Part shown: positions 8,674-18,123 of the stretch, piece after piece
How positions within the stretch are numbered: position 1 is the stretch's first letter
Layout: each line of letters opens with the position of its first letter
NCBI GenBank assembly: GCA_936940865.1
Contig: CAKZJB010000189.1
Span: forward strand, 1-51,107
Direction: 5' to 3'
From: an uncultured Asticcacaulis sp.
GTDB lineage: Bacteria; Pseudomonadota; Alphaproteobacteria; Caulobacterales; Caulobacteraceae
Length of the DNA: 51,107 bases
Notes under the pieces: generated by a model
Told to the model about the DNA's origin: nothing
Databases searched by the model: none
Seen by the model: only the letters and a program-made list of their open reading frames with translations
Translations under genes and position numbers: made by a program

Positions 8674-10203
8674 TTATGCACCCTGGATGGACGCGGCGCC
8701 GCGCGCCAGGCGGTTACAGTGGTCGAGGAAGGCCTGGTGCGGCGGGGCGGCCTGGACGGCGTCTGCGATGCGGTCGCGAATGGCCTTCAGGTTCAGGTCC
8801 GCCTCGATGTCCGACATCTGCGTTACGGCCGGATCGACGCTGTCGGGCCAGACGCCGAAGCCGGCATAGATGGCCAGCCACGACGCCGGATGGAACATCT
8901 CCCAGCGATAGCGCACGAAATGGCCGCGCGAGCGATAGAGCTCCATCTTCCGCGCCAGGGTATCGGGCACATCCATGGCCGCCGCCTTATGCCAGAAGTC
9001 GCCGTCACGCCGGTTCAGCTTGTAATGCAGGATGATGAAGTCGCGCGTCCGCTCGAACTCACGCTTCGCCATGTCGTTATGCTCATCGATGGCCACGGGA
9101 TCGTAACCATCGACGGGCAGAAGCATCTGCAGGCGCTCTATGCCCGTCTGGATCAGGGCGATGCTGGTCGATTCCAATGGTTCCAGAAAGCCGGAAGACA
9201 GTCCAATGGCGACGCAGTTCTTTTCCCAGGCGTTGATGCGCCGGCCGGGACGGAAGCGGATGATGCGGGGCTCAGTCACCGCCTTGCCCGGCAAAGTATC
9301 GCCGAGGATGCGGATGGCGTCTTCGTCCGGCATATGCGCGCTGGAATAGACATGGCCGTTGCCCGAGCGGTGCTGCAGCGGAATGTGCCATTGCCAGCCG
9401 GCGGGGCGCGCCGTGACCTCGGTAAAGCTGTTGGGAGCCTCCACGCGCTCGCTCTGCTGCGCGACGGCGCTGTCGCAAAACAGCCAGCGGCCATAGTCCT
9501 CGTAGCCGACGCTCAAGCCCTTGCCGATCAGCAGCGCCTGGAAACCCGAGCAGTCGACAAACAGGTCGCCTTCGACCCCCTCGCCGCTGTCGAGTTCAAG
9601 TGCTTCGATGAACCCGCTCTCCGGCGACAGGCGTACATTTTTCAAAATGGCGTCGATACGGTGCACGCCGGCCTTCACGGCGAAATCGCGCATATGGTTG
9701 GCGAAAAGGCCCGCGTCGAAGTGCAGCGCCCAGTCGAACTGCGTCCAGGTCTCGCGCGACGGCGACGGCAGGGCAAACTTGCCGGCCTTGGCAAGCGCCG
9801 CCCCCAGCGCATAGTCGTCGAGCGGCCCAGGCATGCCGCGCCGGCGCGCCGCATTGAAAATATGGTGGAATTCCGTGGCCGCCATATCCTGGCCGAAACC
9901 GCCGAACGGATGGATGAAACGGCTGCCCTCGCCCGCCCAGCCCGAAAAGCGGATGCCGAGCTTGCAGGACGCATTGGTGGCGGCGATGACCTCGTAATCG
10001 CTCATGCCCAGGCCATGATAGAAGGCGCGCAGCGTCGGAATCGTCGCCTCGCCGACACCGATCGTGCCGATGGCCGAAGACTCCACGACCGTGATGCGGA
10101 TACCCGACCGGCGGTAGCGGTGGCCGAGCGATGCGGCCGTCATCCAACCGGCGGTCCCGCCGCCCAGAATGACTATGTGTTTCAGGCTTCCTGTGCCGTA
10201 CAT
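8674..10203 (-). CDS. Flavin-dependent tryptophan halogenase family protein (copy 2)
   Basis: Second halogenase-family enzyme, 509 residues, clearly paralogous to the downstream copy but diverged along its whole length. It has the FAD motif LGGGTAGW, WQWHIP for WxWxIP, the catalytic lysine in ASCKLGIRF (Lys81), and SGFLEPLEST with the second active-site acid. It lies downstream of the TonB receptor on the same strand, separated by about 230 bp containing two hairpins. Some transcription therefore probably stops between receptor and halogenases, or the halogenases have their own promoter. The pairing with a receptor and LacI regulator suggests the substrate enters through the outer-membrane receptor; this is inference. 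Confidence 0.9.
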   Translation of the reverse strand: MYGTGSLKHIVILGGGTAGWMTAASLGHRYRRSGIRITVVESSAIGTIGVGEATIPTLRAFYHGLGMSDYEVIAATNASCKLGIRFSGWAGEGSRFIHPFGGFGQDMAATEFHHIFNAARRRGMPGPLDDYALGAALAKAGKFALPSPSRETWTQFDWALHFDAGLFANHMRDFAVKAGVHRIDAILKNVRLSPESGFIEALELDSGEGVEGDLFVDCSGFQALLIGKGLSVGYEDYGRWLFCDSAVAQQSERVEAPNSFTEVTARPAGWQWHIPLQHRSGNGHVYSSAHMPDEDAIRILGDTLPGKAVTEPRIIRFRPGRRINAWEKNCVAIGLSSGFLEPLESTSIALIQTGIERLQMLLPVDGYDPVAIDEHNDMAKREFERTRDFIILHYKLNRRDGDFWHKAAAMDVPDTLARKMELYRSRGHFVRYRWEMFHPASWLAIYAGFGVWPDSVDPAVTQMSDIEADLNLKAIRDRIADAVQAAPPHQAFLDHCNRLARGAASIQGA

Positions 10204-10250
10204 GATTTTGTCCCCGGACTCTATTGGTCCTTCAGGGGTTGAAAAAGACT

Positions 10251-10283
10251 CCCGTGCGAACGTCTTAAGCCCGGCCGCACGGG
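10251..10283. terminator. Inverted repeat between TonB receptor and halogenase genes
   Basis: Arms CCCGTGCG (10251-10258) and CGCACGGG (10276-10283) can pair around a 17-base loop. There is no adjacent T-run, so it may be a processing or attenuation site rather than a true terminator. Confidence 0.35.
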
Positions 10284-10396
10284 AGGGGTACCGTCTCAGT
10301 CAAAGAGACCCAGTTGGGGAAGAACGGACCGCCGGACGGGGAGAACCGCGCCGGAAAGCCCGGATCACACGCTCGGGACGAGCACGTGAGAGGGAT

Positions 10397-10423
10397 CGGG
10401 CGTCCGCGTCAATCAGACGCCCG
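10397..10423 (-). terminator. Hairpin just after the TonB receptor stop
   Basis: Perfect arms CGGGCGTC and GACGCCCG with an 11-base loop begin nine bases after the receptor stop codon. The position suits 3'-end formation of the receptor mRNA. The T-run expected of a strong intrinsic terminator is absent. Confidence 0.5.
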
Positions 10424-10431
10424 AAAGCGCA

Positions 10432-13400
10432 TTACCACTTGGCACGGACGCCGATGGTATAACGGGACTCGAACTGGTTCTGGAAGGCGTACTGCTTCGA
10501 GCTGCCGAACCTGTACTTGTAGACTTCCGTCTCGCCGGTCACGTTGGAGCCGTTGAGATAGATCGAGATGCGATCGTTGATATTATAGGTCGCGTTGACG
10601 TCCACGAACTTGGTCGGATCGGCGAAGACGCCGATGTTCGAGTTGCCGTTGAGCGTGACGACATTGTTCAGGCGTTCGCTGCGGTAGTTATAGGCGACGC
10701 GGACCTGGAACTTGTCGTCCTGATACCAGCCGACCAGGTTGTACTGGGTCTTAGAGTTGTCGGTGAACGGCAGACGCTTGCCGTCGAGGCCGGTACGGGA
10801 CTCGTGGCTGGGCGACAGGGTCAGGTTGGTATCGACCCCGAAGTTCGACAGCAGGCCGCCGTCCAGGAAGTCCTTGAACGAGAACTTGCCGCCGATTTCG
10901 ACGCCCGACACCTGGCCGCCCGACCCCTGCAGCGGCAGGAAGATCGGCACGGCGCCGGCGGGAGAACCGTCGGAATTGACGAACTGGCCCGGCGTCGACA
11001 GGATCTGGCCGTTGGTGACGAAGCTCTTGATGTCCATATTGAACCAGGCAAGGTTCACCACGCTGGCGCGGCCGAGATAGTATTCGACCGCCAGATCGGT
11101 GTTGGTCGAACGCCACGGGTCGAGGCCCGGGTTGCCGTTCGAGTTGGCCGAGGTGACCACGCGGCGCGGCGGAATGTGACCGGGATCGTCATTGGTGTTG
11201 ATCTTGATCGAACCGCCATAGTTGCCGAGGTCGAGCGGCTGCATGGTCTTGGACCAGGCAAAGCGCACCTTCAGCTTTTCGGTGACGTCGGCATTGACGT
11301 TCAGCGACGGCAGGATGTCGGTATAGCTGCGCGTCGTGACCGTGTCGCCCGTGTCGGCATTGGTGTCGCCATAGGCCAGGGTGTCACCCGTCTGGTTCTG
11401 CTTGACGTGCAGCTTGGTCTGGATGCCCCGGACGCCGACATTGCCGCTGAACATGCCGATCTCGAAATTGCCGGCGACGTAGGCAGAGCTTTCATACATG
11501 TCGACATCGTAGGTCTGCCCCGGAACCGTGATGCGCACGGCGCCGCCGAAGACCTTCTTCATGAAGGCTTCCTCGTTGTCGAAGGCCTTGGGATCGACCG
11601 CCCAGAAGCCGGGGATGCCGGATGCCGTGTCGCCGCCCAGCCCCTTGACGAAGATGACCGGATTGTACTGGTCGAGCGCCGTCGGCCGGTTGACCGTATA
11701 GCCCTGGAAGATGGTGGCGGGCTGGCCGGGCGAGGTGTCGGAGTTCGGCACCATTTCGCCCGCGCCGCACTGGGTCGCGTTCATGACGACGTCGATGGCC
11801 TTCCACTGCGCCAGGCAGCCGCTGGCCGGAACCGGCAGGCCGTTGGGCTGGACGCCGGTGTTGGCGTAGAAGCTCGAGAACAGGTGAAACTGTTCGATAT
11901 CGGTCGTGCGTGCGCTGTAGCGGACGCCGGCGTCGATCCTGGTGAACAGGCCGAACAGCTTTTCATCAAACCTGTAGTGGCCGTCCATGCGGCCGACCTG
12001 GAGCGTCGAGCGGGCGTCGTTATTGCCTTCCGACGAATAGGCCGCGACCTTGTACGAGGCGAGGTTGGCCATGTAGTCGGCCGTCGACTTGCCGGCGCCG
12101 AGGCCGCCGGTCAGCAGCATCGGGGTGTCGAAGCCGCCGAAGGCCAGGGTGTCGCCGTTGCTGTTGACATGCAGGCGCGGGTTCGATTCGTAACCCAGCG
12201 GGTTCGGATCGAGATAGCAGCCGCCGGCCGAGCCGACGATGCTGTTGGATCGCTGCGACGCCGGATATTGCGAGCAGATCGAAGCCGGATAGAAGGTGCC
12301 GCGCGTGCGGTCGTTGGGGTCGCGGAACAAGGTGAATTCGTTCGGCGCGGCTGCATTGTACTTCCAGTTCGACAGGTCGCCCTGCACCTGGCCGTTCATG
12401 CTGAGACGGTGGGCGCGGCCGCCGACGAAGCGGCTTTCCATGGTGAACTTGCCGCCGTTGTCGTACTTCAGTTCGAGATTGTAGTTGGTCGAATCCGAAT
12501 TGTTGGTGCGGTTGACGGTGAACGAGTTCAGCCACTGGGCATTGATGTCGTACTGGCTGACATTCCACCACGGCGTGCCGTTGGCGTCCTTGAGACCCGT
12601 GTCGCTGTGCTCGGTCGGCGTCAGCCAGGTAGCGAAAGCCGCGCCGTCCCAGCGGTTCGAGATGTTAAGGCCGACGGCGCGGTTATGCTCTTCCAGCTTG
12701 GCGTAGAAGGCTTCGCCGGTGAGGGTCCAGCCTTCACCCAGCTTTGCCTGGAACGACGCGCTGGCGCCGGTGCGCTTGCGTTCGATGGCGCGGTTGTAGA
12801 CTTCGAAGCCGTGCGGCGCGATGTAGTCCTGAGGCATGCCCGCGCCCCAGTCGTTTTCCGAGAAGACGCCGCCGCCGAAGCCCGAATAGTTGTTGCCGAG
12901 GTTCGATTCCGAACTGACCACCGAGGCCAGGATGCCGAAGCGGTCGTTGCGCCAGCTGGCCAGGGCGTTGACCAGATAGTCATTGCCGCGCGTATAGTCG
13001 CCGCGCGACCGTTCGGCCGCACCCGTCAGCGTCAGGCCCGGCTTGAACTGGAACGGCCGGCGCGTCTGCAGGTCGATCGTGCCCGAAATGCCGGCCAGCG
13101 GCGTGTTGGGATCGGTCGACTTGTAGACAACGACGCTGTTGAGCAATTGCGACGGCACGTCGAGGAAGTTGGCCTGGGCCTGGCCGATATTGCCGGCCGA
13201 CAGATACTGTTCGCCGTTGAACAGCGTGATCGTCTGGGCCAGGCCGCGCAGGTTGACGGTCGAGCCTTCGCCGGCGTCGCGACGGATCTGCACGCCCGGA
13301 ACCCGCTGCAGGCTGTCGGCGATGGTGACGTCCGGCAGCTTGCCGATGTCTTCGGCGGAGATGGCGTCAACCTGGGCAACCGCCTTCTTCTTGACGTCGA

Positions 13401-13578
13401 CGGCGCGGATCTGCGAGCCGCGCACGCCCTTGACGACGACGACCTGGTCGTCGGCGGCCGCCGGTTTGGCCGGCGCCGTTTGCGCCGTCGCGCTCGACAG
13501 CGCCAGCAGCGAAACGCCTGTACACAAAAGTCCGCCCAGCGCGAGACGCGCGAGCGGTCTGGACTTGGTCACTGACAT
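10432..13578 (-). CDS. TonB-dependent receptor (TonB-Xanth-Caul type)
   Basis: Outer-membrane active transporter of 1048 residues powered by TonB-ExbBD. It has a Sec signal (LALGGLLCTGVSLLALSSATAQ), a TonB-box-like VVVVKG segment, a plug domain with ISAEDIGKLPDVTIADSLQR and VPGVQIRRD, and a long beta-barrel ending in the family C-terminus YTIGVRAKW with terminal aromatic residue. Size and plug sequence match the large Xanthomonas/Caulobacter receptors that import oligosaccharides. ATG at 13578 is chosen because GGAAAG precedes it; ATG at 13590 has its purine stretch too close. The LacI gene is divergent, and the shared region holds two inverted repeats that are candidate operators. The substrate is unknown; a plant-derived sugar is a reasonable guess. 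Confidence 0.93.
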   Translation of the reverse strand: MSVTKSRPLARLALGGLLCTGVSLLALSSATAQTAPAKPAAADDQVVVVKGVRGSQIRAVDVKKKAVAQVDAISAEDIGKLPDVTIADSLQRVPGVQIRRDAGEGSTVNLRGLAQTITLFNGEQYLSAGNIGQAQANFLDVPSQLLNSVVVYKSTDPNTPLAGISGTIDLQTRRPFQFKPGLTLTGAAERSRGDYTRGNDYLVNALASWRNDRFGILASVVSSESNLGNNYSGFGGGVFSENDWGAGMPQDYIAPHGFEVYNRAIERKRTGASASFQAKLGEGWTLTGEAFYAKLEEHNRAVGLNISNRWDGAAFATWLTPTEHSDTGLKDANGTPWWNVSQYDINAQWLNSFTVNRTNNSDSTNYNLELKYDNGGKFTMESRFVGGRAHRLSMNGQVQGDLSNWKYNAAAPNEFTLFRDPNDRTRGTFYPASICSQYPASQRSNSIVGSAGGCYLDPNPLGYESNPRLHVNSNGDTLAFGGFDTPMLLTGGLGAGKSTADYMANLASYKVAAYSSEGNNDARSTLQVGRMDGHYRFDEKLFGLFTRIDAGVRYSARTTDIEQFHLFSSFYANTGVQPNGLPVPASGCLAQWKAIDVVMNATQCGAGEMVPNSDTSPGQPATIFQGYTVNRPTALDQYNPVIFVKGLGGDTASGIPGFWAVDPKAFDNEEAFMKKVFGGAVRITVPGQTYDVDMYESSAYVAGNFEIGMFSGNVGVRGIQTKLHVKQNQTGDTLAYGDTNADTGDTVTTRSYTDILPSLNVNADVTEKLKVRFAWSKTMQPLDLGNYGGSIKINTNDDPGHIPPRRVVTSANSNGNPGLDPWRSTNTDLAVEYYLGRASVVNLAWFNMDIKSFVTNGQILSTPGQFVNSDGSPAGAVPIFLPLQGSGGQVSGVEIGGKFSFKDFLDGGLLSNFGVDTNLTLSPSHESRTGLDGKRLPFTDNSKTQYNLVGWYQDDKFQVRVAYNYRSERLNNVVTLNGNSNIGVFADPTKFVDVNATYNINDRISIYLNGSNVTGETEVYKYRFGSSKQYAFQNQFESRYTIGVRAKW

Positions 13579-13660
13579 GGTTCTTTCCATCCCTTGGTTC
13601 CTGATCAGTTGAATTTTTCGCGCACGGCTTCGTTACGCGTTACCCCTGCGTACGCGATTG

Positions 13661-13680
13661 AAATGTCCATTAGGACATTT
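13661..13680. promoter_or_regulatory. Inverted repeat AAATGTCC-N4-GGACATTT, candidate operator
   Basis: Eight-base perfect arms with the spacer ATTA, about 83 bp upstream of the TonB receptor start. It shares the half-site AAATGTC with the second repeat at 13824-13845, so the neighbouring LacI protein may bind both. The spacer lacks the central CG usual in LacI operators, which weakens this assignment. Confidence 0.5.
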
Positions 13681-13823
13681 TTGTTTGTCTTGCAGACGAC
13701 AACTCAGATCGATAATTGATATGAGTTTTAAACGGTGACTCTGTTGCTTTTAATGATTTTCCGCCCTCAACGGGCAATTGCCTGCCCGTTAATGTTGGCG
13801 AAGGGGCGTCATCAAGTCAATGA

Positions 13824-13845
13824 AAAATGTCATCGATGTCATTTT
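13824..13845. promoter_or_regulatory. Near-perfect 22-bp palindrome centred on CG, candidate LacI operator
   Basis: Left half AAAATGTCATC; the right half read on the other strand is AAAATGACATC, so only one position pair breaks the symmetry. The centre is ATCGAT, the even-symmetric CG centre typical of LacI/GalR operators. It lies about 145 bp upstream of the LacI start and 245 bp upstream of the receptor start. Confidence 0.6.
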
Positions 13846-13990
13846 GTGATGGACAAAGTGGACAAAAGACCATCCATATGTTGCAGCGGTGTCACAGCGA
13901 GAGGCTCAAGGACCATGGGATTGCCATTGAAGACGGTTTCCCCGCCACAGGTTTCGAATTAAGGTGGAATCGGGCCTATCGAGAGTTCCC

Positions 13991-15016
13991 ATGTCGACCA
14001 TTTATGACGTCGCCGAACTGGCCGGCGTGTCCGCCAAAACCGTTTCCCGCGTCCTCAACGACGATCCGGCCGTCAAGGGGCCGACGCGTGACCGCGTCCG
14101 CGACGCCATGACCCGGCTCGACTATCGCCCCAACAGCCAGGCGCGGTCCTTGCGCCGGGGCGACAACAAGTCGGTCGGCATGCTGCTGGAAGATCCGGCC
14201 GGCGGCTATCAGGGCCGCTTCCACCACGCCATGCTGGTGGCGTCGATGGAAACGCGCAATCACCTGGCTATCGAGCTGTTTACGCCGGGGCGCAGCGACT
14301 TTCCGCGCGAGGACATCGCCCACTTCGTGGCCGACGCGCAGATCAAGGCCATGGTGCTGCTGCCGCCGCTATGCGACTACGGGCCGCTGAAATCCTTCCT
14401 GAAGGATCAGGGCATCCATTGCGTGCTGATTTCGCCGACCACGCCCGATGACCACTACCCGTCGGTCAATATGGACGACCGCAAGGCGGCGCGCGACGTC
14501 ACCGACTATCTGCTGTCGCTCGGCCATCGCAGGATCGCCCACATCGCCGGCCACCCCGACCACGCCGCCGCCTTCCTGCGCCGCCAGGGCTTCAATGAGG
14601 CTTTCGATGCCGCGGGCAGGCCCCGCCCCGCGAAGGACTACGTCGCCGAAGGGCTTTTCAACTTCAAGTCAGGCATCGAGGCCGCCGAAAAGCTGCTCAG
14701 CCTGAAAGAGCGTCCGACGGCGATCTTCGCCGCCAACGACGAGATGGCGGCCGCCACCTGTTCGGTGGCGCACAAGATGGGCCTGCGCATCCCGGAAGAC
14801 CTGTCGGTCGTCGGCTTCGATGATGCGCCGATCGCCTCTGCCGTCTGGCCGGCCCTGACCACGGTGCGCCAGCCTTATCTCGACATGGCCAAGCGCACCC
14901 TGCAAATCCTCAACGCGGCCGGCGACGCCCCGCACCGCTCCGACGTCCAGGAACGCCACATCATCGCGCACGAACTGGTCATCCGCGAATCGACGGGGCC
15001 GGCGCCGGCCGTGTAA
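13991..15016 (+). CDS. LacI-family transcriptional regulator
   Basis: Sugar-responsive repressor of 341 residues. The N-terminal helix-turn-helix reads TIYDVAELAGVSAKTVSRVL with the hinge helix downstream (NSQARSLRRG). The rest is the type I periplasmic-binding-like ligand domain, including FAANDEMAAATC and DLSVVGFDDAPIA. The start is ATG at 13991 behind GAGAG; longer in-frame versions would precede the invariant helix-turn-helix by an unusual extension. It faces away from the TonB receptor and probably represses the receptor (and perhaps the halogenases) until an inducer, likely a sugar, is bound. Autoregulation is likely from the palindromes in the shared region. Confidence 0.92.
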   Translation: MSTIYDVAELAGVSAKTVSRVLNDDPAVKGPTRDRVRDAMTRLDYRPNSQARSLRRGDNKSVGMLLEDPAGGYQGRFHHAMLVASMETRNHLAIELFTPGRSDFPREDIAHFVADAQIKAMVLLPPLCDYGPLKSFLKDQGIHCVLISPTTPDDHYPSVNMDDRKAARDVTDYLLSLGHRRIAHIAGHPDHAAAFLRRQGFNEAFDAAGRPRPAKDYVAEGLFNFKSGIEAAEKLLSLKERPTAIFAANDEMAAATCSVAHKMGLRIPEDLSVVGFDDAPIASAVWPALTTVRQPYLDMAKRTLQILNAAGDAPHRSDVQERHIIAHELVIRESTGPAPAV

Positions 15017-15080: not shown

Positions 15081-15899
15081 GTGCAACTGCCCGTTGTCTT
15101 TCACCTTTTCGGCCTGGCCCTGCCGGCGCACCTGGTTTTCGAAAGCCTGGCCTATGGCGTGGGCTTCCGGCTTTATCTGTGGCTGCGCAAGCGGGGCGAC
15201 CGGCTGGACGACCGGACGCGCATGACGGCGCTCATCGGCGCCATTGTCGGCGCGGGCCTCGGCTCCAAGCTGCTGGGTTTCGCCGAGCACCCCGAACTGT
15301 GGCAGCAAGCGCTGCACAACCCGATCTACCTGATGGCGGCCAAGACCATCCTGGGCGGCCTCCTGGGCGGCACGGTCGGCGTCGAAATCGCCAAGGCTAT
15401 TGCCGGCGTCAAAACCTCGACCGGCGACCTCTATGTCTTCCCGCTGATCGCGGCCATCGCCATCGGCCGTATCGGCTGCCTGCTGACCGGCGTCAGCGAC
15501 GGCACCTGGGGCGACGCCACGCATTTCATGCTCGGCTTCAATGCCGGCGATGGCGTGATCCGCCATCCGACCCCGCTGTACGAGATCGGCTTTCTGATCG
15601 CGCTGGCGGGCATCCTGTGGCAGGTCCGCAGGCGCCTGACTTTACAACACGGCGATCTCTTCAAGCTGTTTATCATGGCCTATTGCGCCTGGCGGTTCGC
15701 GATCGAATTCCTCAAGCCCGTCACCACCTATGCGCTGACAAACAACTTGAACATTGTTCAAAATATCGCTACCGATAGCGACCTGAGCGCAAAGCCCGGT
15801 CTGTCCATGCTGCAAATGGCGGCGGCATTGGGCTTTGCGGTCTACGCCGCGCACTTTGCGCAATATATGAGGGGGAAATATCGGGATGGCAGCGCGTGA
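15081..15899 (+). CDS. Lgt-like (prolipoprotein diacylglyceryl transferase family) membrane protein
   Basis: A 272-residue polytopic membrane protein with the overall Lgt pattern: about seven helices, a GRIGCLLTG segment where Lgt has GRLGNFING, and RHPTPLYEIG matching the Lgt hPtqlYE region. The residues I would expect for Lgt catalysis are changed. The HGGL motif appears as ILGGLLGG without the histidine, and the Asn and Glu of GNFINGE are Cys and Val. It is therefore probably a paralogue with a different substrate, not the housekeeping enzyme. The start is GTG at 15081 behind GGGGGAAAAGCC. Its last 14 bases overlap the start of the radical SAM gene, which implies translational coupling and a shared function. 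Confidence 0.75.
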   Translation: MQLPVVFHLFGLALPAHLVFESLAYGVGFRLYLWLRKRGDRLDDRTRMTALIGAIVGAGLGSKLLGFAEHPELWQQALHNPIYLMAAKTILGGLLGGTVGVEIAKAIAGVKTSTGDLYVFPLIAAIAIGRIGCLLTGVSDGTWGDATHFMLGFNAGDGVIRHPTPLYEIGFLIALAGILWQVRRRLTLQHGDLFKLFIMAYCAWRFAIEFLKPVTTYALTNNLNIVQNIATDSDLSAKPGLSMLQMAAALGFAVYAAHFAQYMRGKYRDGSA

Positions 15900-17289
15900 C
15901 TATATCTTCTTCGAGCTGACCAATTCGATCTGCTCGACCTGCTGGCGCAAGCTGGAAGCCAAGATCATCTTTCAGGACGACAAGGTCTTTATGCTGAAGA
16001 CCTGCCCGGAGCACGGCCGCGAAAAAGTGCTGATCTCGACCGACATCGCCTGGTACAAGATGACGCGCGACTTCAACAAGCCGGGCGACATGCCGAAGAA
16101 ATTCGGCATGAAGGTGGAACGTGGCTGCCCCTACGACTGCGGCCTGTGCAGCGACCACGAACAGCATAGCTGCGTATCGATTGTCGAACTGACCGACCGC
16201 TGCAACCTGACTTGCCCAACCTGCTATGCGTCGTCGAGCCCCAGCCATGGCCGCCACCGCACGCTTCAGGAAATCGAGCGCATGCTCGATATCGTGGTGA
16301 GGAGCGAAGGCGAACCCGACGTCGTCCAGCTTTCGGGCGGCGAGCCGACGCTCCATCCCGACTTTTTTACCGTCATGAACATGGCCAAGGCGCGGCCGAT
16401 CCGCCATTTGATGATCAACACCAACGGCCTGCGCATCGCGCGCGAGCCGGCCTTCGCCGAGCGCCTGGCCGGCTACATGCCGGGCATCGAGGTCTACCTG
16501 CAGTTCGACTCGTTCTCGGCCGAAACTCTGAAAACGCTGCGCGGCGAGGACCTGACCGCAGTCCGCCGCGATGCCATCGCCAATCTGAACCGCTTCAACA
16601 TCTCGACAACCCTGGTCGTGACCCTGCAAAAGGGGCTGAACGACCACGAGATCGGCGACATCCTGCGTTATGCCCGGTCACAGCCGTGCGTGCGCGGCGT
16701 CACTTTCCAGCCGACGCAAGGAGCCGGGCGCACCGAGCCCTTCGACCCGGCGACCGGCCGCATTACGCTCTCCGAAGTCCGCCAGGCGATCCTCGACCAG
16801 TACGATGTCTTCGCCGCCCAGGACCTGGTGCCGGTGCCCTGCCACCCAGACGCCATCATGATGGGCTATGCCTTGAAACTGGGCGACGAGACCGTGCCGC
16901 TGACGCGTTACTTCAGTCCCGAAGAACTGTTGTCGACGTCGCGCAACACGGTCAATTTCGAGACCATGCCGGAGGTCCACGCCAAGCTGGTCGGGCTGTT
17001 CTCGACCGGCAATTCGCCCCAGGACTGTACCGAAAAGATCGCCGACATCATGTGCTGCCTGCCCCGCGTCGACACCGGCACATTCGGCGGCCTGACCTAT
17101 GGCAACCTGTTCCGCGTCATCGTCATGAAATTCTACGACGCCCACGATTTCGACGTGCGCGGCGTCAAGAAGACCTGCGTCCACATCGTGCACAAGGACG
17201 GGCGCATCATTCCCTTCGACACCATGAACCTGTTCTACCGCGATCCCGCGGACGAAGCGCGGCTGATGGCGGCGGCGGGCCTCAGATAA
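15886..17289 (+). CDS. Radical SAM protein of the tetraether-synthase (Tes / MJ0619) type
   Basis: A 467-residue multi-cluster radical SAM enzyme. The canonical CxxxCxxC is Cys106-Cys110-Cys113 (TDRCNLTCPTCYA), followed by LSGGEPTLHPDF, the SAM-binding GGE motif. Upstream are a CSTCW pair (Cys16, Cys19) with TCPEHG (Cys40), and GCPYDCGLC with a further Cys96. These are the extra cysteine sites characteristic of Tes, the archaeal enzyme that joins lipid chain ends. The C-terminus has a CC pair in IMCCLPR and ends with CVHIVHKDGRIIPFDTMN. Bacterial homologues exist and their products are mostly unknown. Fusion to lipid biology is supported by the overlapping Lgt-like gene. It could instead modify another hydrocarbon chain or a lipoprotein. 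Confidence 0.8.
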   Translation: MAARDYIFFELTNSICSTCWRKLEAKIIFQDDKVFMLKTCPEHGREKVLISTDIAWYKMTRDFNKPGDMPKKFGMKVERGCPYDCGLCSDHEQHSCVSIVELTDRCNLTCPTCYASSSPSHGRHRTLQEIERMLDIVVRSEGEPDVVQLSGGEPTLHPDFFTVMNMAKARPIRHLMINTNGLRIAREPAFAERLAGYMPGIEVYLQFDSFSAETLKTLRGEDLTAVRRDAIANLNRFNISTTLVVTLQKGLNDHEIGDILRYARSQPCVRGVTFQPTQGAGRTEPFDPATGRITLSEVRQAILDQYDVFAAQDLVPVPCHPDAIMMGYALKLGDETVPLTRYFSPEELLSTSRNTVNFETMPEVHAKLVGLFSTGNSPQDCTEKIADIMCCLPRVDTGTFGGLTYGNLFRVIVMKFYDAHDFDVRGVKKTCVHIVHKDGRIIPFDTMNLFYRDPADEARLMAAAGLR

Positions 17290-17314
17290 ACCATTCCAGT
17301 TGGGAGACGGCGTC

Positions 17315-17605
17315 ATGCAATATAAACGCACCCTTGTCCTGGTCCTCGGCGGCCATCTGCTGCTTCTGATGCTGATTTACCTGCCCTATGTCTTCAAAAG
17401 GATAGAGTCGCTGGAAATCCTGGTACCCGGCATGATGAACCTGGCCCTGATTGGCGCCAGCTTTATCGCGTCGGCGATCGTCAGCATCGTGCCGTCATGG
17501 CGCAAATATTGCGGCTGGTGGTGGCTGAGTTTCGGCGCTCTGATGCTCGCCTCGCTTCCCGCCTGTCTGGCGACGGCGCAGCTCAACGAAATGATCGCGC
17601 GTTAG
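17315..17605 (+). CDS. Small three-helix membrane protein
   Basis: A 96-residue protein with three predicted membrane helices (about 7-27, 38-62 and 69-89) and few charges. I do not recognise the family. It begins 25 bases after the radical SAM gene, behind GGGAG, on the same strand. It is probably the third gene of the Lgt-like/radical SAM operon and might hold those enzymes at the membrane. A TTG at 17300 is an alternative start. Its stop codon overlaps that of the converging PAS gene. Confidence 0.65.
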   Translation: MQYKRTLVLVLGGHLLLLMLIYLPYVFKRIESLEILVPGMMNLALIGASFIASAIVSIVPSWRKYCGWWWLSFGALMLASLPACLATAQLNEMIAR

Positions 17606-18123
17606 GACGCCGCTTCGACGGGCGCCGATCGAATGCCGGTCTGCAGCAGGTCGACCTTGCCGATCAGGGCGTCGTGCCCCAGGATCATGTCGACATTGAC
17701 GCCGTCACTGGCCAGCGGCAGGCGCAACCAGAAAAGGCTCAAGCCCTTGGCGCCGCGCCAGGCCATCGACGACAGGCCGACATTGGGCTTCTTGTTTTCG
17801 ACGACGAAGGTCAGGGCCTCGGCCCAGTATTGCGCTTCCGACGCCGTATAGATCTTATTGAACGTCATGCCGGTGATTTCCTGGCCGTAGGCATCGAACA
17901 GTTCCGTGCCCGCCAGGCGCTGACGGAAGAAGACGGCATCATTGTCGGGATTGGGATCGAGAACGTCGATCAGCGAAATGGTCGGCAGGCGACGCTTGAT
18001 CTGCATGGGATCGATGTCGGCGCGCGACGGCAGGCGGCCGCGCGTCCGCAACCCCTTCCAGTACCGGAAGATCTCCTCATGCGAACGCAAGGCCGCCAAC
18101 ATTTCGGACGCGAGACCAGCCAT
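17602..18123 (-). CDS. Single-domain PAS protein (PAS_5 family)
   Basis: A 173-residue protein that is almost entirely one PAS_5 domain: IFRYWKGLRTRGRLPSRADI, then LPTISLIDVL, FRQRLAGTEL and FDAYGQEITGMTF. It has no kinase, GGDEF or DNA-binding output. In Caulobacter a single-domain PAS protein, MopJ, localises to the pole and influences CtrA and DivJ/DivK signalling. This gene could be related, but alphaproteobacteria carry many PAS_5 proteins and I cannot decide orthology. It converges with the small membrane protein gene. Confidence 0.75.
   Translation of the reverse strand: MAGLASEMLAALRSHEEIFRYWKGLRTRGRLPSRADIDPMQIKRRLPTISLIDVLDPNPDNDAVFFRQRLAGTELFDAYGQEITGMTFNKIYTASEAQYWAEALTFVVENKKPNVGLSSMAWRGAKGLSLFWLRLPLASDGVNVDMILGHDALIGKVDLLQTGIRSAPVEAAS

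Follow-up and report, generated by a model that had tools for sequence, protein, structure and literature searches.

Two described enzymes stand closest to the genes treated here. In Lgt of E. coli, the prolipoprotein diacylglyceryl transferase, the residues R143, R239, Y235 and E202 line the lipid pocket, and the variants H103A/N/Q/R/Y and N146A are inactive, according to passages of PMC4728403 and PMC8689077. The second is Tes (GDGT-MAS), a radical S-adenosylmethionine (rSAM) enzyme in which Met439 and Tyr459 are fully conserved among the archaeal proteins and Tyr459 was dispensable in mutants (passages of PMC9433317). For bacteria, part of PMC8941075 describes 456 Tes homologues and proposes that they make branched glycerol dialkyl glycerol tetraethers (brGDGTs). 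Here we describe a three-gene module on a 51,107-nucleotide stretch of DNA from an uncultured Asticcacaulis sp. (contig CAKZJB010000189.1; the whole stretch is called the window), in which a gene for an Lgt-like membrane protein is followed by genes for an rSAM protein of the Tes superfamily and for a small membrane protein (Table 1). We read it, tentatively and with somewhat less than even confidence, as a cassette dedicated to the lipid modification of small integral membrane proteins.

The Lgt-like protein matches Pfam LGT (PF01790) with 72.7 bits against a cut-off of 24.9, and its gene does overlap the rSAM gene by 14 bases, as the initial annotation of this DNA had described. The rSAM protein matches Pfam Radical_SAM (91.6 bits) and Zn_ribbon_HMPTM (65.1 bits), and the window's own genome has one single match to the Zn-ribbon family of the module rSAM type. 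The small protein has no Pfam match at E values up to 1 and no NCBIfam family either. The closest loci come from Asticcacaulis sp. AC466 (86%) and Asticcacaulis currens (84%), in keeping with a host from the Caulobacteraceae. Judged against the A. currens locus (L005), all three open reading frames (ORFs) look coding: amino-acid identity is 178/270 for the Lgt-like protein, 389/464 for the rSAM protein and 44/96 for the small protein, and the corresponding ratios of non-synonymous to synonymous difference (pN/pS) are 0.27, 0.13 and 0.51, which are a rough sign only, as pS is saturated at 0.77-0.80.

Table 1. Genes and candidate functional residues of the module, in window coordinates
Feature	Position	Strand	Basis or remark
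Lgt-like membrane protein, 272 aa	15081 (GTG) to 15899	+	ORF, Pfam LGT
Cys133 codon, motif GRxGC, column of E. coli Asn146	15477..15479	+	family alignment; profile alignment to 5azb
Tes-superfamily rSAM protein, 467 aa	15886..17289	+	overlaps Lgt-like gene by 14 bases
Rubredoxin-type site C16-X2-C19-X20-C40-X2-H43	15931..16014	+	80/80 family rows
N-terminal auxiliary cluster motif C81/C85/C88 + H91	16126..16158	+	80/80 family rows; same columns in Tes
Radical SAM motif CX3CX2C (C106, C110, C113)	16201..16224	+	80/80 family rows
Cys319, candidate C-terminal cluster ligand	16840..16842	+	117/118 loci; Cys too in some Tes/TrsS rows
Cys390-Cys391 pair, candidate C-terminal cluster ligands	17053..17058	+	118/118 loci
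Cys431, C-terminal region, shared with MJ0619	17176..17178	+	117/118 loci, 1 gap
Small membrane protein, 96 aa	17315 (ATG) to 17605	+	ORF; three hydrophobic helices by eye
Cys84 codon (LASLPAC), helix-end Cys of small protein	17564..17566	+	sequence

The first two genes form a conserved pair. A search with the rSAM protein alone found 133 loci; the best 80, rich in Pedobacter and Paenibacillus, include an Lgt-like gene in 78, and in the two without it (L014 and L075) the rSAM match starts within 35 bases of a contig end. A set of 126 loci, which excludes the window, contains eight with rSAM scores of 400-640 bits that were admitted only through the presence of an Lgt-like gene. When the count is restricted to rSAM scores above 640 bits, the gene is found in 115 of 118 loci and is missing in L014, L075 and L228. 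Second loci of one place were removed from this set manually, L126 was excluded because it nearly duplicates L125, and L070, L096, L099, L119, L120, L124, L125, L127, L129, L131, L150, L213, L221, L222 and L223 were swapped for longer stretches of the same place. Each of the 126 loci differs from every other within the final 1,200 bases of the rSAM frame, but many are close relatives, so that these counts are not independent.

Whole genomes were also sampled. Among 398 Pseudomonadota genomes the rSAM and Lgt-like profiles each matched 12, and these were the same genomes, with the two genes adjoining except in G170, where one gene lies between them. The 247 Bacteroidota genomes gave the rSAM protein in 22, the Lgt-like protein in 23 and both in 21, the rSAM-only genome (G969) having a distant 238-bit match. 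Some member of the rSAM family is present in 23 of 299 Bacillota genomes; an Lgt-like gene lies in the stretch in G400, G710 and G791, and none was found within the short flanks of the other listed Bacillota loci. In Acidobacteriota, 116 of 199 genomes carry some family member and 12 the module type (whole ORF of at least 748 bits), all 12 with a nearby Lgt-like gene; the distance is about 1.5 kb in G399 and about 2.5 kb in G458, and in G491 the contig start truncates the gene. Conservation of the pair in other genomes, on which the initial annotation had made its proposal depend, is thus seen across phyla. Pairwise identities of the rSAM and Lgt-like proteins are also correlated (Mantel r 0.83 over 44 thinned loci, with 0 of 999 permutations as high). 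The pair is patchy, occurring in one of ten other sampled genomes of the window's own family (G259), whose locus (L097) is placed by the tree in a different subclade from the window; together these observations suggest that the module spread by horizontal transfer. A wider operon was considered and rejected, as the 25 most shared clusters of flanking ORFs (first 81 loci) consist of module genes and seemingly genus-specific neighbours.

The window's Lgt-like protein has the Lgt fold, and its R130, R205, Y201 and E168 match R143, R239, Y235 and E202 of the E. coli enzyme. Across the family, the Arg143, Tyr235 and Arg239 columns are kept in 122/122, 123/123 and 123/123 rows, Glu102 and Lys105 are nearly invariant, and Cys133 is present in every one of the 122 rows with a residue in its column (one has a gap). 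The protein stays under the NCBIfam equivalog cut-offs, with 25.8 vs 118.9 bits for TIGR00544 and 44.7 vs 334 for NF000778. Since a separate, higher-scoring Lgt (242 bits) is present in the window's own genome, and an additional, stronger LGT match (151-282 bits) in 14 of 15 module genomes tested, the module protein is an extra Lgt. A 716-aa frame in G398 (L236:5432-7579, minus strand), on a contig other than the module's, combines PEMT-type methyltransferase, PAP2-like and LGT domains and is another Lgt-fold protein tied to lipid metabolism.

The initial annotation had assigned the rSAM protein to the Tes type on account of extra cysteine clusters. The rubredoxin-type site, with the spacing given for Tes in part of PMC9433317, and the N-terminal cluster site bear this out; the C-terminal cluster region carries other cysteines. 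In the three Tes Cys columns by that cluster (window 323, 430 and 445), Cys is found in 7/7 Tes rows but in only 26, 0 and 0 of the 118 module loci; the window protein has Cys at none of these positions. That these columns bind the cluster is suggested by their conservation, Met439 being the only residue named in the Tes passages; the cluster was judged on sequence alone, as residues 350-401 of the rSAM model are poorly predicted, most with predicted local distance difference test (pLDDT) values under 50. The Cys390-Cys391 pair is not found in Tes or TrsS rows and is present in the two haloarchaeal rows and L150. The Met439 column holds Met in the window and in 91/118 module loci, with Val in 25, and the Tyr459 column holds Tyr in 0/118. 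Against the Tes family NF045702 the protein scores 273 bits, under the cut-off of 450, which the Acidobacteriota proteins L136 and L139 exceed (619 and 550 bits). In a quick tree with Shimodaira-Hasegawa-like approximate likelihood ratio test (SH-aLRT) supports and no bootstrap, 40 module rows lie on one side of a branch with support of 100, and MJ0619 (a fragment) clusters with Acidobacteriota rows including L136 with support of 98. The module protein therefore belongs to the Tes superfamily, but its position in the tree, its family score and its C-terminal Cys columns all place it outside Tes itself, and the chain-end coupling of Tes is not simply transferable to it.

The Tes fold, with the common rubredoxin and N-terminal cluster sites, would also suit a free-lipid product. 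The rSAM and Lgt-like proteins would then make a dimeric, macrocyclic or membrane-spanning lipid, and the small protein would be a scaffold or lipid-handling subunit whose cysteine holds the complex or a transient lipid. The prevalence of Met in the Met439 column argues for such a product, as do the binding of bacterial phospholipids by Tes made in E. coli, described in part of PMC9433317, and the brGDGT-type lipids proposed for bacterial homologues. We nevertheless consider it unlikely, though a serious contender, as the module clade stands apart from Tes and from the long Acidobacteriota Tes-like proteins, one of which is encoded by a separate gene in a module-bearing genome (G399), and the C-terminal Cys columns are largely lost.

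The curated family with the best score for the rSAM protein is TrsS (NF045646, 315 bits), whose profile matches 34/34 members of alignment A3, and in the wider clade a methyltransferase accompanies some relatives (L084, and L178 by eye). These observations would fit a TrsS-like pathway for a cofactor, sulfur or redox chemistry outside lipid metabolism, with the Lgt-like protein as membrane anchor. The score is below the TrsS cut-off of 490, which L152 exceeds with 657 bits, and by eye, on example sequences, no methyltransferase, CoA ligase or oxidoreductase recurring with the module across lineages was recognised among the 25 flanking clusters, making this pathway improbable. Clustering of the rSAM protein with a characterised non-lipid family, named at the outset as an outcome that would undo a lipid role, did not occur, as the protein forms its own clade with TrsS separate. 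In-frame TGA codons flagged in L131, L221 and L222 were considered as selenocysteine and rejected, since they look like ordinary gene-end stops.

A small membrane ORF lies directly 3' of the rSAM gene in most loci. The third gene had initially been noted as following the pair, which it does; rather than an add-on, it is part of the unit in most loci and may be the key to it. Profile iteration from the window's small protein reached only four loci, and counterparts were therefore found by position and Cys-helix pattern, with 6,408 control windows that overlap and were drawn from the same loci. A Cys after a hydrophobic stretch, preceded by Lys or Arg and in an ORF ending at most 450 bp 3' of the rSAM stop, was found in 95/123 loci compared to 2.5% of the control windows, and Gly at position -2 of the Cys in 64/123 loci compared to none. 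Among 63 distinct sequences, counted without a charge or -2 filter, net positive charge lies N-terminal of the helix in 51 (equal in 9, reverse in 3). As flanking charge orients membrane helices by the positive-inside rule, this would place the Cys outside, where Lgt works. The lipobox consensus has a small residue at -1 of its Cys; here Gly, Ala or Ser occupies -1 in 25/63 sequences, and LPAC of the window protein fits the consensus. At least two Cys-helix ORFs lie within 900 bp in 37/123 loci, and no convincing paralogue of the small protein was found elsewhere in the window's own genome (second match E 0.58). A substrate would be expected to show such tandem copies and strong divergence around one recurring residue, which makes the small protein a candidate substrate of the module enzymes, and the protein is more variable in sequence and copy number than would be expected of the scaffold in a free-lipid system. 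As a substrate it could instead undergo peptide maturation, in which the rSAM protein would modify it, for example by a thioether or crosslink at Gly-x-Cys, and the Lgt-like protein would then lipidate, hold or export it; we regard this as rather doubtful. Three tandem small Cys-helix ORFs follow the rSAM gene in a Hyphomonadaceae metagenome-assembled genome (L079:7362-8407).

The Lgt-type pocket, the Tes-type fold and the lipobox-like Cys together lead us to favor lipid modification of the small protein with rSAM remodelling of the chains. In the proposed cassette, the Lgt-like enzyme would bind a glycerophospholipid in the pocket that it has in common with Lgt and, with Cys133 replacing the usual His/Asn pair, would move a glycerolipid or other lipid fragment onto the cysteine of the small protein. 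This candidate acceptor would sit at the outer end of the helix, and the small protein would stay uncut in the membrane. The Tes-like rSAM protein, on the cytoplasmic side, would act on the alkyl chains of that lipid and form a bond there by radical chemistry, either ahead of the transfer or following it. In its fullest form, which we judge unlikely as a whole, this would be a new post-translational modification: an Lgt paralogue with a cysteine active site would lipidate small transmembrane proteins at a Gly-x-Cys-like site, and the rSAM protein would link the alkyl chains of the lipid with one another, with a second lipid or with the protein. Membrane proteins covalently welded to lipid in this way would occur at least in Pseudomonadota, Bacteroidota, Bacillota, Acidobacteriota and Planctomycetota and, divergently, Actinomycetota.

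Several observations weigh against the cassette. Two residues that E. coli Lgt requires are missing from the Lgt-like family: the His103 column holds no His in 122 rows (V 65, L 14, A 13, M 11, I 9, E 9, T 1; Leu91 in the window), and Asn146 is replaced by Cys in 122/122. Ordinary lipoprotein diacylglyceryl transfer is therefore not transferable to this protein, which may be no transferase at all. Of the lipid or lipoprotein chain coupling first suggested for the locus, the Lgt fold, the Tes superfamily and the conserved pair hold, while neither chain-end coupling nor diacylglyceryl transfer carries over. In the rSAM protein the Cys set is altered in the very region that bears Tes chemistry, the best curated score, albeit under the cut-off, is that of TrsS, and the TrsS-side relatives examined adjoin methyltransferases and redox proteins, not lipid genes. 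The pair is broken in Bacteroidota G920 (L237) and G1071 (L238), which have orphan Lgt-like genes with GRxGC and no rSAM match at threshold, and in G937 its genes are on separate contigs. A Cys-helix ORF was not found in 28/123 loci, and a second scan left 29/126 loci without a match having Gly, Ala or Pro at -2, although the flanking sequence of some (L228, L230, L231) is ample. Gly stands at -2 in 31/63 distinct sequences, the window protein having Pro, and the Cys is located at the end of the first rather than the last helix in a large Bradyrhizobium-type subclade and several Acidobacteriota.

Distant relatives with 31% rSAM identity, on a Mycobacterium avium plasmid (L087) and in Nonomuraea (L088), keep the Lgt-like gene and a Cys-helix protein, with the motifs TAGIC and SAGYC in M. 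avium and SAGIC in Nonomuraea. A third, distant rSAM clade (L225:4432-8085, L226:3399-6938 and L183) is accompanied by an Lgt-like protein with GRxGC and, in L225 and L226, by a small protein ending in FGAC or FGSC. The gene set of this clade further includes an ICMT/PEMT-family methyltransferase (by Pfam in L225 and L226, by eye in L183) and, in L226, a DUF4395 membrane protein; such a methyltransferase is compatible with lipid or lipidated-cysteine chemistry and is proof of neither. In the Mycolicibacterium and haloarchaeal loci L084, L086 and L089, a Tes/TrsS-superfamily rSAM gene adjoins an annotated methyltransferase, with no Lgt, and L178 has the same arrangement by eye. Tandem pairs of divergent rSAM genes of this superfamily occur in L133, L135 and L171, with no Lgt in these short stretches.

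Upstream of the module, the window encodes a tryptophan halogenase, a probable TonB-type receptor (from sequence) and a LacI-family regulator (8674-15016), the last ending 64 bases before the Lgt-like start. Downstream, a gene for a MopJ-type motility/cell-cycle PAS protein (17602-18123, minus strand; 240.6 bits vs a cut-off of 200) is convergent with the small protein gene and overlaps its end by four bases.

The existence of the rSAM family as "Tes-like" is not new, since it probably falls within the loose cut-off of PMC8941075. In open-licence literature, judged by titles, abstract starts and passages, no treatment was found of the pairing with an Lgt-like gene, of the exchange to Cys133 or of the Cys-helix proteins. 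With the module, one bacterial branch of the Tes superfamily has both a specific partner and a possible acceptor, and the cassette provides a testable alternative to the view that bacterial Tes homologues make the membrane-spanning lipids used as palaeotemperature proxies. The exchanged active-site residues of this Lgt branch are relevant to the mechanism of Lgt and, if the cassette exists as proposed, membrane proteins modified with lipid form a widespread class that has escaped notice.

Finally, the module can be set beside the known systems. It resembles Lgt in fold, pocket arginines, Tyr235, Glu202 and the GRxG motif, and differs in lacking His103, in the change of Asn146 to Cys, in the nearly invariant Glu102 and Lys105 and in co-existing with a higher-scoring Lgt. 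With Tes/GDGT-MAS (Methanocaldococcus jannaschii MJ0619, PDB 7tol/7tom) it has in common the rubredoxin-type, N-terminal cluster and CX3CX2C sites, whereas the module rSAM protein forms its own sub-cut-off clade, is paired with an Lgt-like gene, and has mostly lost the C-terminal-cluster Cys columns and gained a CC pair. TrsS, an rSAM (seleno)protein, has Cys96 in common with the module protein beyond the Tes-like sites, but is a separate clade, and the TrsS-type loci inspected, partly by eye, adjoin methyltransferase or redox-type genes. Mss, the bacterial membrane-spanning lipid synthase, has the Tes architecture as reported in part of PMC13274423; the surroundings of two long Tes-like proteins, L106 and L190, showed no Lgt-like gene within the stretches covered, Mss itself not being identified with certainty among the rows. 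Like a lipobox signal peptide, the small protein has a positive flank, a hydrophobic helix and a Cys near its probable outer end; unlike one, it has a residue other than Gly, Ala or Ser at -1 in 38/63 distinct sequences, Gly is commonest at -2, and the Cys helix is often the last helix of the protein.
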